Positions 9,247 to 35,058 of a DNA stretch of 45,187 bases are shown piece after piece. The position numbers were made by a program, and so were the translations under genes. The stretch is from Candidatus Thorarchaeota archaeon (lineage in GTDB: Archaea > Asgardarchaeota > Thorarchaeia > Thorarchaeales > Thorarchaeaceae), in NCBI GenBank assembly GCA_003345595.1, contig PRDI01000117.1, positions 1-45,187 of the forward strand, in the 5' to 3' direction. The notes under the pieces are model-generated. The model did no database searches and had not been told where the DNA came from. It was given only the letters and a program-made list of their open reading frames with translations. Numbering within the stretch: the first letter of the stretch is position 1; the number at the start of each line of letters is the position of its first letter.

Positions 9247-9996
9247 ATGGACGACGAATGCGGTCAATGGGAGCGGCTTGCTGGTGAGTTCGCAGAAACC
9301 GAGAAGTACTTTCAGGCTGCGAAGCAGTACAAGCAGGCTGCAAGCTGTTATCTTGAGAGAGTCGTAGAAATGACCAGAAAGGCAGCCGAGTACTTCCATC
9401 TTCATGCAGAGGATAGCCTTGAGAAGGACGATCACAAGGCAGCTGCACTAGCTTACTTCGAGGCCGCGACTCAATACAAGGAGCTGAGTGACTTCGCCAC
9501 AGCTCTGACTTTGTTCGAGAACGCTGCCAGAGAGGCCCTTGAGGGAAGAATGACTGAGACTGCGGCCCAATCCTACCTCTGGGCTGCTCATTCTTGTCAC
9601 AAGCTTGGCAACAGCGAGTACTTCCTCACATGTGCCGACAATATGGGTCAACTCTATGATAAGGCCGCAGACGAAGCTCTTCAGGAGGGCAAGGCTGAGC
9701 GAGCTGTGATAGACCTTTCACTGGCCGCGATGGGTCTTGCCACAATCGAGAAGACCATCGAGGCAAAGAAGCGCATTGACAAGGCCAAACGTATCGTCGA
9801 CAAGACTCCATGGGATTGGCTCAAGAGCCTTCTCACCTTCAGCCAAGCGCTCACTGAGAACAGACTTGAGGAAGCAGAGGATCTGCTGAGGACCTTCAAA
9901 CAAGAAGAAACCATCCAAGAAGTCATGGACGCTTGCCTTAGCATCCTCGAAGAGCGCGAGAAGAAGAGAAAGAAGCCGGAAAAGAAAGTGAGCTAG
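9247..9996 (+). CDS. Alpha-SNAP/TPR-like helical repeat protein
   Basis: A 249-residue, almost wholly helical protein. Repeats of about 35-40 residues carry Ala/Tyr-rich helices: AAKQYKQAASCYLER, AALAYFEAATQYKE, ALTLFENAAREA, AAQSYLWAAHSCHKLG. This spacing is like TPR and alpha-SNAP-type solenoids. The C-terminus is charged (EEREKKRKKPEKK). There are no membrane or catalytic motifs, so a scaffold or adaptor role is inferred. The gene is convergent with a second repeat protein, overlapping it by 4 bases at the stops. I cannot distinguish a true SNAP relative from a generic TPR protein by eye. Confidence 0.75.
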   Translation: MDDECGQWERLAGEFAETEKYFQAAKQYKQAASCYLERVVEMTRKAAEYFHLHAEDSLEKDDHKAAALAYFEAATQYKELSDFATALTLFENAAREALEGRMTETAAQSYLWAAHSCHKLGNSEYFLTCADNMGQLYDKAADEALQEGKAERAVIDLSLAAMGLATIEKTIEAKKRIDKAKRIVDKTPWDWLKSLLTFSQALTENRLEEAEDLLRTFKQEETIQEVMDACLSILEEREKKRKKPEKKVS

Positions 9997-11243
9997 CCGA
10001 CTCTCACGAGCGCTGTCTTGACAATCTCATCAGCCTGATTCTGTTCCCTTACCTTCACCGTCACGAGGGACTCACCCGCCTTAACAGATCGCATGTACAA
10101 CTGGAATCTCATGTGTTCGCCAGTTCCGATGAACTGTATGGTCTTCTGTCCACTTCCCATCGCGAGTTCGAGACCTGGTGAGAACTCAGTGTTCACATCG
10201 ATGTTGTTTGCCGGACCATCACCACGGTTCATGAGGATAACATCCAAGACGACCTCATCACCAAGTCCGCAACTGATTCTCTGGGGAGACAGATCAACCT
10301 GTAGGAGGGCGGGCGCTGGGGCGACCTCAAAGGCGACCGAGTCACTGTGTTTGTTCACCAGCACCTTGTCCCCCTCAAGCGTCAGCTTCAGGGGGCCAAC
10401 GACTGCACTACCATTCAGGATGGGGTTCACTTCTATGAGCCATGACTCTTCCTTTGCGTTGGCTCCCGTGATCTTCGGAGCCTTCGTGAGGGTCAGGTTG
10501 CTGGATAGCGCGATGCGATGATCGATGACACGAACAGGCACCGGGCACTTGTAGCGAAGCTCAAACTCTATCGGTGTCTTCACTCTGATTATGTCATCCT
10601 TGCGGCCAGCCCACTCTAGAGAGACCTCGGTTTCCAGGGCAAGCCGCAGCGATGACGCAACAAAGGTGACTAGGGTCGATTCAACTGACTTTGTCTTAAA
10701 CTGCTCCACAATCTTTGCCAGCTCGCGAGCGTCTGCAGCCTCGCCTTCGCATAGAATCTTGACACCCATCGTGGCCAAATCGTAGGCTGAAACCCTTGGA
10801 GATGCTGCCCCCGTGAACCGCTTCTCAGCCTTTCTGAACAGGTTCGTTGCCGTGTCGAAATTGCGAGCGGCCAGATAGCAGAGAATCGACATAGACAAGG
10901 CACGCGCGGATTCATTGATCTTTTTCTCCCGATGGTAGTGGTCAGATGCCTCTGAGAAAATGGCGCCGCCTTCGTCAAAGCGCCCGTCCGCAATCAGCGC
11001 CTCTGCAGCATCTGTCTTCATGGCAGCCGCACGTAAATGGTCGTCCTTCTCCAATGCGCAATAGGCTGCTTCACGGAAGTACTTGACAGCAAAGTCTACC
11101 TCTTCGGCCTCAACGAATAGCCTCGCTGCCTTTTCGTACTCCTCGCTGGCATAGTCAGGATAGCCGGCTTCCATCTCGGAAAGGGCCTTCTCAATATGCT
11201 TCTTCGCCTTTGATTGTGGATCTCTTTTCAGGAATCTGACCAT
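9993..11243 (-). CDS. SNAP/TPR-like solenoid fused to a C-terminal beta-sandwich
   Basis: A 416-residue protein. Residues about 10-190 are helical repeats (KAKKHIEKALSEME, YASEEYEKAARLFVEA, FAVKYFREAAYCALEKDDH) resembling the convergent neighbour. Residues about 200-415 are beta-rich, with two Ig-like or appendage-like segments (LRLALETEVSLEW, LLQVDLSPQRISCGLGDEVVLDVILMNRG is one long strand-rich stretch of which the pattern, not identity, matters). The 'NRGDGPANNI' type turn is typical of CARDB/Ig-like modules. No signal peptide or membrane anchor is seen, so it is probably cytoplasmic. A longer start at 11264 is possible; MVRFLKRD at 11243 is preferred because the repeat begins just after it. 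The function is unknown; an adaptor role is inferred. Confidence 0.7.
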   Translation of the reverse strand: MVRFLKRDPQSKAKKHIEKALSEMEAGYPDYASEEYEKAARLFVEAEEVDFAVKYFREAAYCALEKDDHLRAAAMKTDAAEALIADGRFDEGGAIFSEASDHYHREKKINESARALSMSILCYLAARNFDTATNLFRKAEKRFTGAASPRVSAYDLATMGVKILCEGEAADARELAKIVEQFKTKSVESTLVTFVASSLRLALETEVSLEWAGRKDDIIRVKTPIEFELRYKCPVPVRVIDHRIALSSNLTLTKAPKITGANAKEESWLIEVNPILNGSAVVGPLKLTLEGDKVLVNKHSDSVAFEVAPAPALLQVDLSPQRISCGLGDEVVLDVILMNRGDGPANNIDVNTEFSPGLELAMGSGQKTIQFIGTGEHMRFQLYMRSVKAGESLVTVKVREQNQADEIVKTALVRVG

Positions 11244-11323
11244 CTGTACGTGCCCCTGTATCATCCGTTAGTTTCGAATAGGGCTTTGCTCTGAGTTTTG
11301 TGTGTTTCGGCGGAGATGAAAGG

Positions 11324-32523: not shown

Positions 32524-35058
32524 ATGGATGCGGACATTCGGTTTCTGCAAAGCAAGGGAATCATGAGTGACGCAGTTCACGTGACCGTCCGGACCGGGAG
32601 TAAGCCTCTTGACTTGCAGTATAGCCCGACGCTTCGCATGGCCTACCTCGAGAGTGATGCGTCCGTTGACGCCGATGCTGTTGCCGCACAAGTAAGCTCG
32701 ACTTTGATGCTTGATTATCTTTGGCTTGTCAATGGACACACTAGAGTCTACAGGTACTTCGGCGAGAAAACATGTGTAGACTTCCCAGACACAAAGGCTC
32801 TGGAAGACACGCTCAGCGTTGTTGGATGCTCAGGCTTGCGGCCGACTACACTACACCGAATGTTCGAGGACCGCACTGCCTTCAAGAAACTCAATGACAG
32901 GCTTTGGGTCACGAGGATGAAGATGGCTGAGTGCATGGATGAGCACAAGCCCCTCAGGGAAAGACTGCTTGAGGCCCAGCATATCATAGACGAAGTGATT
33001 GTGGCAAAGCTCTTGGGAGATTCATGCAACCCAATCATATCTGAAGAAGAGGCTACACGAGTCCTCGATGAAGAGCTCGAGGACTGTGCTTGGAGTCTGA
33101 GCCCGGTCAAATGCAACTCTCCGTCCATGACACCAAGCATCTTGGAATGGATCTACGAGAACTTCACATCAGCCCTGATAAGCATGCCCGATAGTTCAGA
33201 TGATTCTGAGCTCCGGCGTACTGCTCTCAAGCGGAACAACCGGAAGACCGGCACCTATTACACGCCTGAATACATCGCTCGGTACATTGTCGGCAACGCG
33301 CTCTCAACGTGGCTCAGGCGCAGAACGGGACTGGACGTGACAGACCCTCACCAGCTTGTGGGTGCCACGGAAGAGCTGAAACGCAGAGCACTTGACCAGC
33401 TCAAGAACGTCACAATCATTGACCCTGCTGTCGGTGGCGGAGCATTCCTTCTTGCGGCAGGTGGGTGGCTTGAGAATTGCAGAATCGCACTTGACGATAG
33501 GGACCCCAGGAATGCGATGCGCGAATGGATCATCAATCACAATCTACACGGCGTAGACCTGAATCCCAGAACCGTGGAATTGTGCAGACTAAGGCTACGA
33601 CTGTGGTATCTCTCATCGTTCGACCCTCTGGGTAAGTCAGAAGTCCTGCAGACTGACCGGAACATAAGATGTGGCAACAGTCTGGTGGGGCCCACAGCCG
33701 GATATCGCGACAAAGTATATCCTGCGCTGCCAACAGATGCTGAAGATTCCCAGTTCGATTGGACCAAGGAATTCCCTCACGTCATGTCTGGCGGAGAGAA
33801 AGGATTTGATGTCGCAGTCGGAAACCCGCCGTATGGAAACATCCTTTCGGAACGTGAGAGAAGGCTCATCTCATACTCATACGAACATATAGTGAGCGGT
33901 AGCCCCGGAGGTACCTGGAACAGCGCCGCGTTCTTCGTCGTACGCAGCCGCATGATCGTAAAAGAGGGAGGCGAGATTGGCTTCATCATTCCGAACAGCA
34001 TTCTAAGAGTCGGTCAGTTCTCAAAGACGCGACAATTCCTCCTCCATCATACGCGGCTATGGGAGATCGTGGATGAAGGGAGCCCGTTCAACGATGTCAC
34101 GCTGGAAATGGTCAGCGTGTTCTTCACAGCCGAGAATGATACAGGCGGACATTGTGTACGCATAGTATCGAGGAGGCCAGGGGTGGAAACCGGGCATGAC
34201 ACCTCATGGGAGTCACTGCGGTCTGGCAAAGTCTTCGTGCTCTACGGCGACGACATCCTCGAAAGGGCGTTGAACCGAGGGGTCAGAGGACTGATCACGG
34301 GCACGCGCGGCAGAGACATACCCACTGAGCACGTACGAAATAAAGTCAGCGGACCATTCAAGATTCCGTATGCTACGAGTGGCCACAGTGTGAAACGTTA
34401 CACATTGGACCGTAGGCATTTGATACATGCTGACAGATGGTTTGAGCATGATGCCGCGTTGCTAGACTCCTTTTCAAACAGCTTTCTCATAGCCACAAAG
34501 AACTACCCCTACCCCAGATGCGTAATGAAACCGAGAGGAGTCATCCACGGAGGTGGGGCAGTGAGAATCAAGGCTTTGGGCGACAATCTTGATCCTGAAA
34601 CTCTTGGTGCCATACTGAACTCGCGCGTGGTCAGGTATCTATGTCGTCGTTATCTCACTAATTACTCCCAGCTCACAACGTGCATGAACACAGGAATTCT
34701 GGAGGATCTACCTGTTGCATACCCCAAGGCCAGCAAACCCTTCAAACTCTTGTTCAGAGCTCTGAGCGAGCTCCATCAGACAGGTGAGTCCTCACATGAC
34801 AATAGGGCTGCTCAAGTGTATCTGGAAACACTCGCAGACGCTCTTGCGTATTCATTGTACTTTGGCGAAGGCGATGATCTCTTACAGGCTGTAGATCTGG
34901 CTCTCAGTTCAGCTAACTCCCGCATCACTGCTAGTGACCTCTACAAGGTTCTGAATACCGAGCATCTGGGCGCCTTAGTGGATGAGGTGCTAGAGAACCC
35001 CATTGTCAAAAGAATCGAATCATCTCCCTTCATGGGGCAGCCCTCTCCGGCGGCTTAG
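32524..35058 (+). CDS. Solitary N6-adenine DNA methyltransferase (Eco57I/TaqI-like)
   Basis: An 844-residue protein. Residues about 240-260 (GTYYTPEYIARYIV) and D300-P-A-V-G-G-G (AdoMet motif I, a variant of DPACGSG) begin the methyltransferase core. N434-P-P-Y437 is the catalytic motif, followed by GEIGFIIPNSIL. The C-terminal 250 residues look like a target-recognition region (ILNSRVVRYLCRRYL, GILEDLPVAYPK). The N-terminal 230 residues are of unknown fold; I see no clear endonuclease motif (PD-ExK). No restriction or helicase gene flanks it. It could be a type IIG-like enzyme, an orphan methylase, or part of a defence system elsewhere. Confidence 0.85.
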   Translation: MDADIRFLQSKGIMSDAVHVTVRTGSKPLDLQYSPTLRMAYLESDASVDADAVAAQVSSTLMLDYLWLVNGHTRVYRYFGEKTCVDFPDTKALEDTLSVVGCSGLRPTTLHRMFEDRTAFKKLNDRLWVTRMKMAECMDEHKPLRERLLEAQHIIDEVIVAKLLGDSCNPIISEEEATRVLDEELEDCAWSLSPVKCNSPSMTPSILEWIYENFTSALISMPDSSDDSELRRTALKRNNRKTGTYYTPEYIARYIVGNALSTWLRRRTGLDVTDPHQLVGATEELKRRALDQLKNVTIIDPAVGGGAFLLAAGGWLENCRIALDDRDPRNAMREWIINHNLHGVDLNPRTVELCRLRLRLWYLSSFDPLGKSEVLQTDRNIRCGNSLVGPTAGYRDKVYPALPTDAEDSQFDWTKEFPHVMSGGEKGFDVAVGNPPYGNILSERERRLISYSYEHIVSGSPGGTWNSAAFFVVRSRMIVKEGGEIGFIIPNSILRVGQFSKTRQFLLHHTRLWEIVDEGSPFNDVTLEMVSVFFTAENDTGGHCVRIVSRRPGVETGHDTSWESLRSGKVFVLYGDDILERALNRGVRGLITGTRGRDIPTEHVRNKVSGPFKIPYATSGHSVKRYTLDRRHLIHADRWFEHDAALLDSFSNSFLIATKNYPYPRCVMKPRGVIHGGGAVRIKALGDNLDPETLGAILNSRVVRYLCRRYLTNYSQLTTCMNTGILEDLPVAYPKASKPFKLLFRALSELHQTGESSHDNRAAQVYLETLADALAYSLYFGEGDDLLQAVDLALSSANSRITASDLYKVLNTEHLGALVDEVLENPIVKRIESSPFMGQPSPAA

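Follow-up and report, generated by a model that had tools for sequence, protein, structure and literature searches.

Position, reading frames and predicted fold of the gene pair

The window, a stretch of 45,187 nucleotides from a Thorarchaeota genome, contained two adjacent convergent genes whose stop codons overlapped tail to tail at 9993-9996. Gene B (9247-9996, + strand) encodes a protein of 249 aa, a SNAP/TPR-like solenoid made up of helices alone whose C-terminal tail is basic, and gene A (9993-11243, - strand) encodes a protein of 416 aa composed of a solenoid and two Ig-like domains. The longest open reading frame of A opened at 11264, but the conserved start was an internal ATG at 11243 carrying the conserved motif MxxFLxxDP. 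The convergent pair, its end at 11243 and the Asgard setting had been proposed in a sequence-only reading, and all three were confirmed.

Full-length alignments were obtained for 28 A and 27 B sequences of Thorarchaeota. The identity to the window copy was 46-62% for the 27 other A sequences and 61-80% for the 26 other B sequences, and the median dN/dS of close pairs was 0.088 and 0.098, respectively. Given the low dN/dS and the full-length alignment of relatives, A and B are real genes, and they are under purifying selection. No transmembrane stretch was found in A or B (the highest mean hydropathy over 19 residues was 1.3 and 1.2), and secreted or membrane proteins were ruled out by the lack of a hydrophobic segment. 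For the window copy of A, neither Pfam nor NCBIfam supplied a name above cut-off. Of the 28 Thorarchaeota A sequences, 22 matched Pfam DUF6435, whose function is unknown (best E 3e-4); since the FLKKDP-type start is shared, this match appears to fall on the N-terminus of A (11160-11243, - strand).

AlphaFold2 models were built from six sequences each for A and B. The model of B was all helix and of good confidence (pLDDT 87.6, pTM 0.75). In the model of A, which was of moderate confidence (pLDDT 76.1, pTM 0.62), helices occupied residues 2-204 and strands occupied residues 206-307 and 314-415 in two sandwiches, in agreement with the beta-rich, Ig-like tail that had been read on one of the two genes. 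The conserved N-terminus, M-x-x-F-L-x-x-D-P (11217-11243, - strand), is short, hydrophobic and basic; it was kept in several other Asgard families and absent from some Asgard lineages. It is followed by the solenoid domain (helices 9-204; 10632-11219, - strand), predicted to contain 11 helices, by Ig-like domain 1 (residues 206-307; 10323-10628, - strand) with the invariant GP motif G283-P284, and by the DUF11/CARDB/TRAPPC13_C-like Ig-like domain 2 (residues 314-415; 9999-10304, - strand).

Both solenoids were helical in the models, as similar helical repeats in the two genes had been claimed, but judged from the profiles the likeness between them is weak and of superfamily level only. Profile-profile comparison of the A and B solenoids gave a probability of 58% (E 1e-4) with Thorarchaeota-only profiles and 96.6% (E 5e-10) with an Asgard-wide A profile, which matched an unrelated TPR protein of the same genome as well as it matched B. 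The B profile failed to find A (5.9 bits), and close paralogy of A and B was left without support by these comparisons.

Linkage of the pair and distribution of each gene

Both genes were present in 43 of the 47 genomes of the host family, and the 4 genomes with neither were incomplete assemblies. Wherever A and B were measurable on one contig (29 pairs, window included), they were always convergent, with a stop-to-stop spacing of -7 to +10 bp. The order in the window, namely GlyRS, HMG-CoA reductase, B, A and a tRNA_SAD/DHHA1 editing-type protein, was kept in the Thorarchaeota relatives that were read. Outside Thorarchaeota, the neighbours of A varied and included AMP phosphorylase-like, HdrA-like and nucleotidyltransferase-like genes, named by eye from their sequences. 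Because the neighbours were housekeeping genes in Thorarchaeota and differed in other lineages, the genomic context yielded no function, and an operon or context reading was set aside. An anti-phage system was also discarded, with no PADLOC match. Elsewhere in the window, an Eco57I-type restriction-modification methylase of 844 aa was observed at 32524-35058.

The two genes differed in their spread. Profile A5, built from 31 members, detected A in 136 of the 228 Asgard genomes searched (E<1e-40), spread over at least ten families and normally as a single copy. Homologues of similar length, mostly 412-466 aa, were also retrieved from other Asgard families by the Thorarchaeota profile. In an alignment of 19 homologues from these families the solenoid and both Ig domains could be traced, the profile match of 3 of them, from one family, being secure over the Ig region alone. 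B was nearly restricted to Thorarchaeota, with weak matches in 3 other genomes in the Asgard search; its nearest relative outside was a tandem B-like pair in another Asgard family (locus L118, 2636-4236). The pair is conserved in the host family; beyond it, A was widespread and B nearly absent. The strong conservation of B and its fixed place beside A suggest that the two may have a joint function, although convergent neighbours need not work together and the adjacency does not count as proof of joint action.

Resemblance of the solenoids to SNAP and to TPR proteins

Pfam SNAP (PF14938), named for an adaptor of membrane fusion in eukaryotes, was the commonest match, found in 28/28 A and 27/27 B sequences of Thorarchaeota, mostly near or below cut-off. 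In the window, A scored 24.5 bits and B 21.7 bits against a cut-off of 25, with partial coverage of the model, and some relatives exceeded the cut-off. The same model was triggered by bacterial and other archaeal controls, and two other proteins of the host genome scored above A and B; the label alone was discarded as evidence because controls triggered it too. In searches against PDB sequences, gamma-SNAP was the sole significant match of profile A3 of A (9e-5), and with profile A5 Sec17 (3e-11) and gamma-SNAP (5e-10) preceded a consensus TPR (3e-5). The B profile matched alpha-SNAP (7e-4), ranked after a designed repeat protein. An ordinary TPR protein encoded by the host genome, which also triggers Pfam SNAP, served as control; it matched LGN and kinesin light chain (KLC), and SNAP was absent from the best 60 PDB matches listed for it. 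In the Foldseek comparison of B, the first 11 matches were Sec17/gamma-SNAP over nearly the whole length (E 3e-4 to 1e-3). Their TM-scores were low (0.30-0.38), and HAP40, LGN and KLC equalled or surpassed them. Among named families, SNAP (Sec17/alpha-SNAP and gamma-SNAP), an all-helical solenoid, came closest to the solenoids of A and B in sequence and fold, in line with the likeness that had been noticed from the letters. The exclusive matching to generic bacterial TPR proteins and the unconserved pair, which that reading had named as speaking against it, did not occur.

Such results would fit A and/or B being archaeal relatives, by descent, of the adaptors that serve trafficking in eukaryotes (SNAP, or the large TRAPP/appendage proteins), with a part in membrane remodelling. 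This kinship, advanced in the sequence-only reading, was not supported and is considered improbable: the PDB profile search and Foldseek favoured a SNAP-type over a generic TPR solenoid, but the reverse searches did not reciprocate. A profile of three SNAP sequences (alpha-SNAP confirmed, Sec17 partly confirmed, and both Sec17 and gamma-SNAP entered as what we take to be their sequences) scored the ordinary TPR of the host genome at 43.5 bits, A at 18 and B at 11, the query sequences being partly approximate. The C-terminal tail of SNAP, acidic and with an NSF-activating Leu, had no recognisable counterpart in A or B. Alpha-SNAP ends in IKKTIQGDEEDLR, and this C-terminus is reported to bind Sec18/NSF (PMC8143792); B ends in the basic tail KKRKKPEKKVS in place of the acidic end, and the solenoid of A, unlike SNAP, runs on into Ig domain 1. 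As for the N-terminal apolar loop of SNAP, A had an MFxFLKxDP-type start in several lineages and none in others, and B had none.

A second explanation, possible but clearly less probable than the one favoured below, takes A and B as plain archaeal TPR proteins, A having gained CARDB/DUF11-type Ig-like domains independently, so that the eukaryotic likeness would be convergent. TPR models of Pfam matched too, weakly (TPR_12 17.3 bits against a cut-off of 30.1 in the window copy of A; few weak TPR matches in B), and the solenoid profile of A scored the ordinary TPR of the same genome as high as gamma-SNAP. On the other hand, the PDB comparison of A placed SNAPs about six orders of magnitude above generic TPRs, and the TPR control turned to LGN and KLC instead of SNAP. 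Because the reverse test failed, controls triggered SNAP and the C-terminal tail was missing, A and B were not called SNAP; they are SNAP-flavoured solenoids, not demonstrable SNAP or TRAPP subunits.

The Ig-like tail and the proposed role of A and B

The order of a solenoid followed by Ig-like domains, as predicted for A, recalls the large TRAPP subunits (TRAPPC8-C11/Trs130 type) and TRAPPC13, a parallel that the sequence-only reading had drawn and that the layout of A upheld. TRAPPC8 and TRAPPC11 carry Ig-like tails. Their alpha-solenoids have been described (PMC8204870). When the model of A was submitted to Foldseek, a large yeast TRAPPII chain ranked second, with 421 columns aligned and a TM-score of 0.23; ciliary, transglutaminase and integrin chains scored nearly equal to it. 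The large TRAPP subunits have about 1100 aa compared with 416 aa in A, and no Foie-gras/Gryzun model was among the Pfam matches listed for A. From the predicted model, the resemblance of A to these subunits is one of architecture only.

The Ig matches were unspecific. TRAPPC13_C was found in 5 and the adaptin ear in 1 of the 31 A members, all weakly; DUF11 in the window copy reached 13.8 bits (cut-off 24.6), and CARDB/DUF11 was matched by 13 of the 31 at E<=0.05. The Ig-like sandwich fold is common to A and to adaptin appendage, CARDB and DUF11 domains, but the matches of A were below cut-off and scattered over several families. The weak TRAPPC13_C and adaptin ear matches and the rank of the TRAPPII chain would accord with descent from trafficking adaptors, as would the Bet3-like TRAPP genes of Thorarchaeota, usually two. 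Against it, transglutaminase and integrin matched the Ig part as well, and TRAPP-domain (Bet3-type) proteins were largely limited to Thorarchaeota among 59 genomes, whereas A was widespread and also occurred in genomes where no Bet3-type domain was detected. Since the distributions differ, A was not tied to TRAPP-domain proteins. Membership of the pair in a TRAPP locus was likewise rejected, the two TRAPP-domain genes of the host genome lying on another contig beside other genes. A conserved Thorarchaeota TRAPP locus (L123 = G000:C44, L124 and L125) was observed, in which two TRAPP-domain genes lie about 3 kb apart and each adjoins a protein of about 300-330 aa of one common type and lies near a small protein with hydrophobic stretches. 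On the whole, the genes, the fold and the SNAP likeness that had been read from the letters stood, and the pair was conserved; that A and B descend from trafficking adaptors or belong to them was not supported.

Asgard ESCRT-associated proteins have been reported to mix TPR, IG-like, longin and Vps28-C domains, which were proposed as interaction modules (PMC10936438). TPR and IG-like domains are common to them and A, but no longin, Vps28-C or other ESCRT module was seen in A, and those proteins were described as patchy while A is widespread and keeps one and the same layout. A second Asgard type, distinct from A, has a helical N-terminus, one CARDB-like Ig domain and a helical or coiled-coil tail (L107 1470-3245, L108 1337-3088, L109 1332-3035, L115, L116 and L117). 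The existence of such TPR-plus-single-Ig proteins (463-591 aa), like DUF11/CARDB among the Ig matches of A, would suit the plain TPR origin.

On balance, with a little better than even chances, A and B both act as scaffolds for protein interactions in the cytosol, most likely as adaptors that bridge partners as alpha-SNAP and the large TRAPP subunits do. The Asgard-wide single-copy occurrence of A, purifying selection, a solenoid with two Ig domains and no transmembrane segment, the SNAP-led PDB matches, the Foldseek matches of B, and the co-presence and convergence of the pair argue for these scaffolds; the uninformative housekeeping neighbours and the N-terminal motif missing in some lineages argue against them. 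The solenoid of A would offer a concave surface to a partner, either helical or a peptide, a second binding surface may be formed by the pair of Ig-like domains of A, and we infer that its hydrophobic-basic N-terminus could contact a membrane in the lineages keeping the motif. A counts among the core proteins of many Asgard lineages. B is the more strongly conserved of the two, a solenoid specific to Thorarchaeota that falls in the same broad superfamily and stays immediately beside A. A trafficking role of A and B is possible. The most far-reaching view, which we regard as very unlikely, is that A is an ancient core membrane-associated adaptor of Asgard archaea whose SNAP-like solenoid and Ig-Ig tail preserve an ancestor of SNAP and/or TRAPP-type adaptors, with B as its Thorarchaeota-specific partner.

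No description of A was found in the literature on Asgard SNAP or solenoid-Ig proteins, a search that covered mostly journals outside subscription, and the family is apparently undescribed so far. With its TRAPP-like solenoid-Ig layout, A forms a widespread Asgard family that lacks a name, and it would remain an unassigned core family even if it is not an adaptor. If it is one, A would provide a small, soluble-looking target for direct tests of archaeal precursors of the trafficking machinery.
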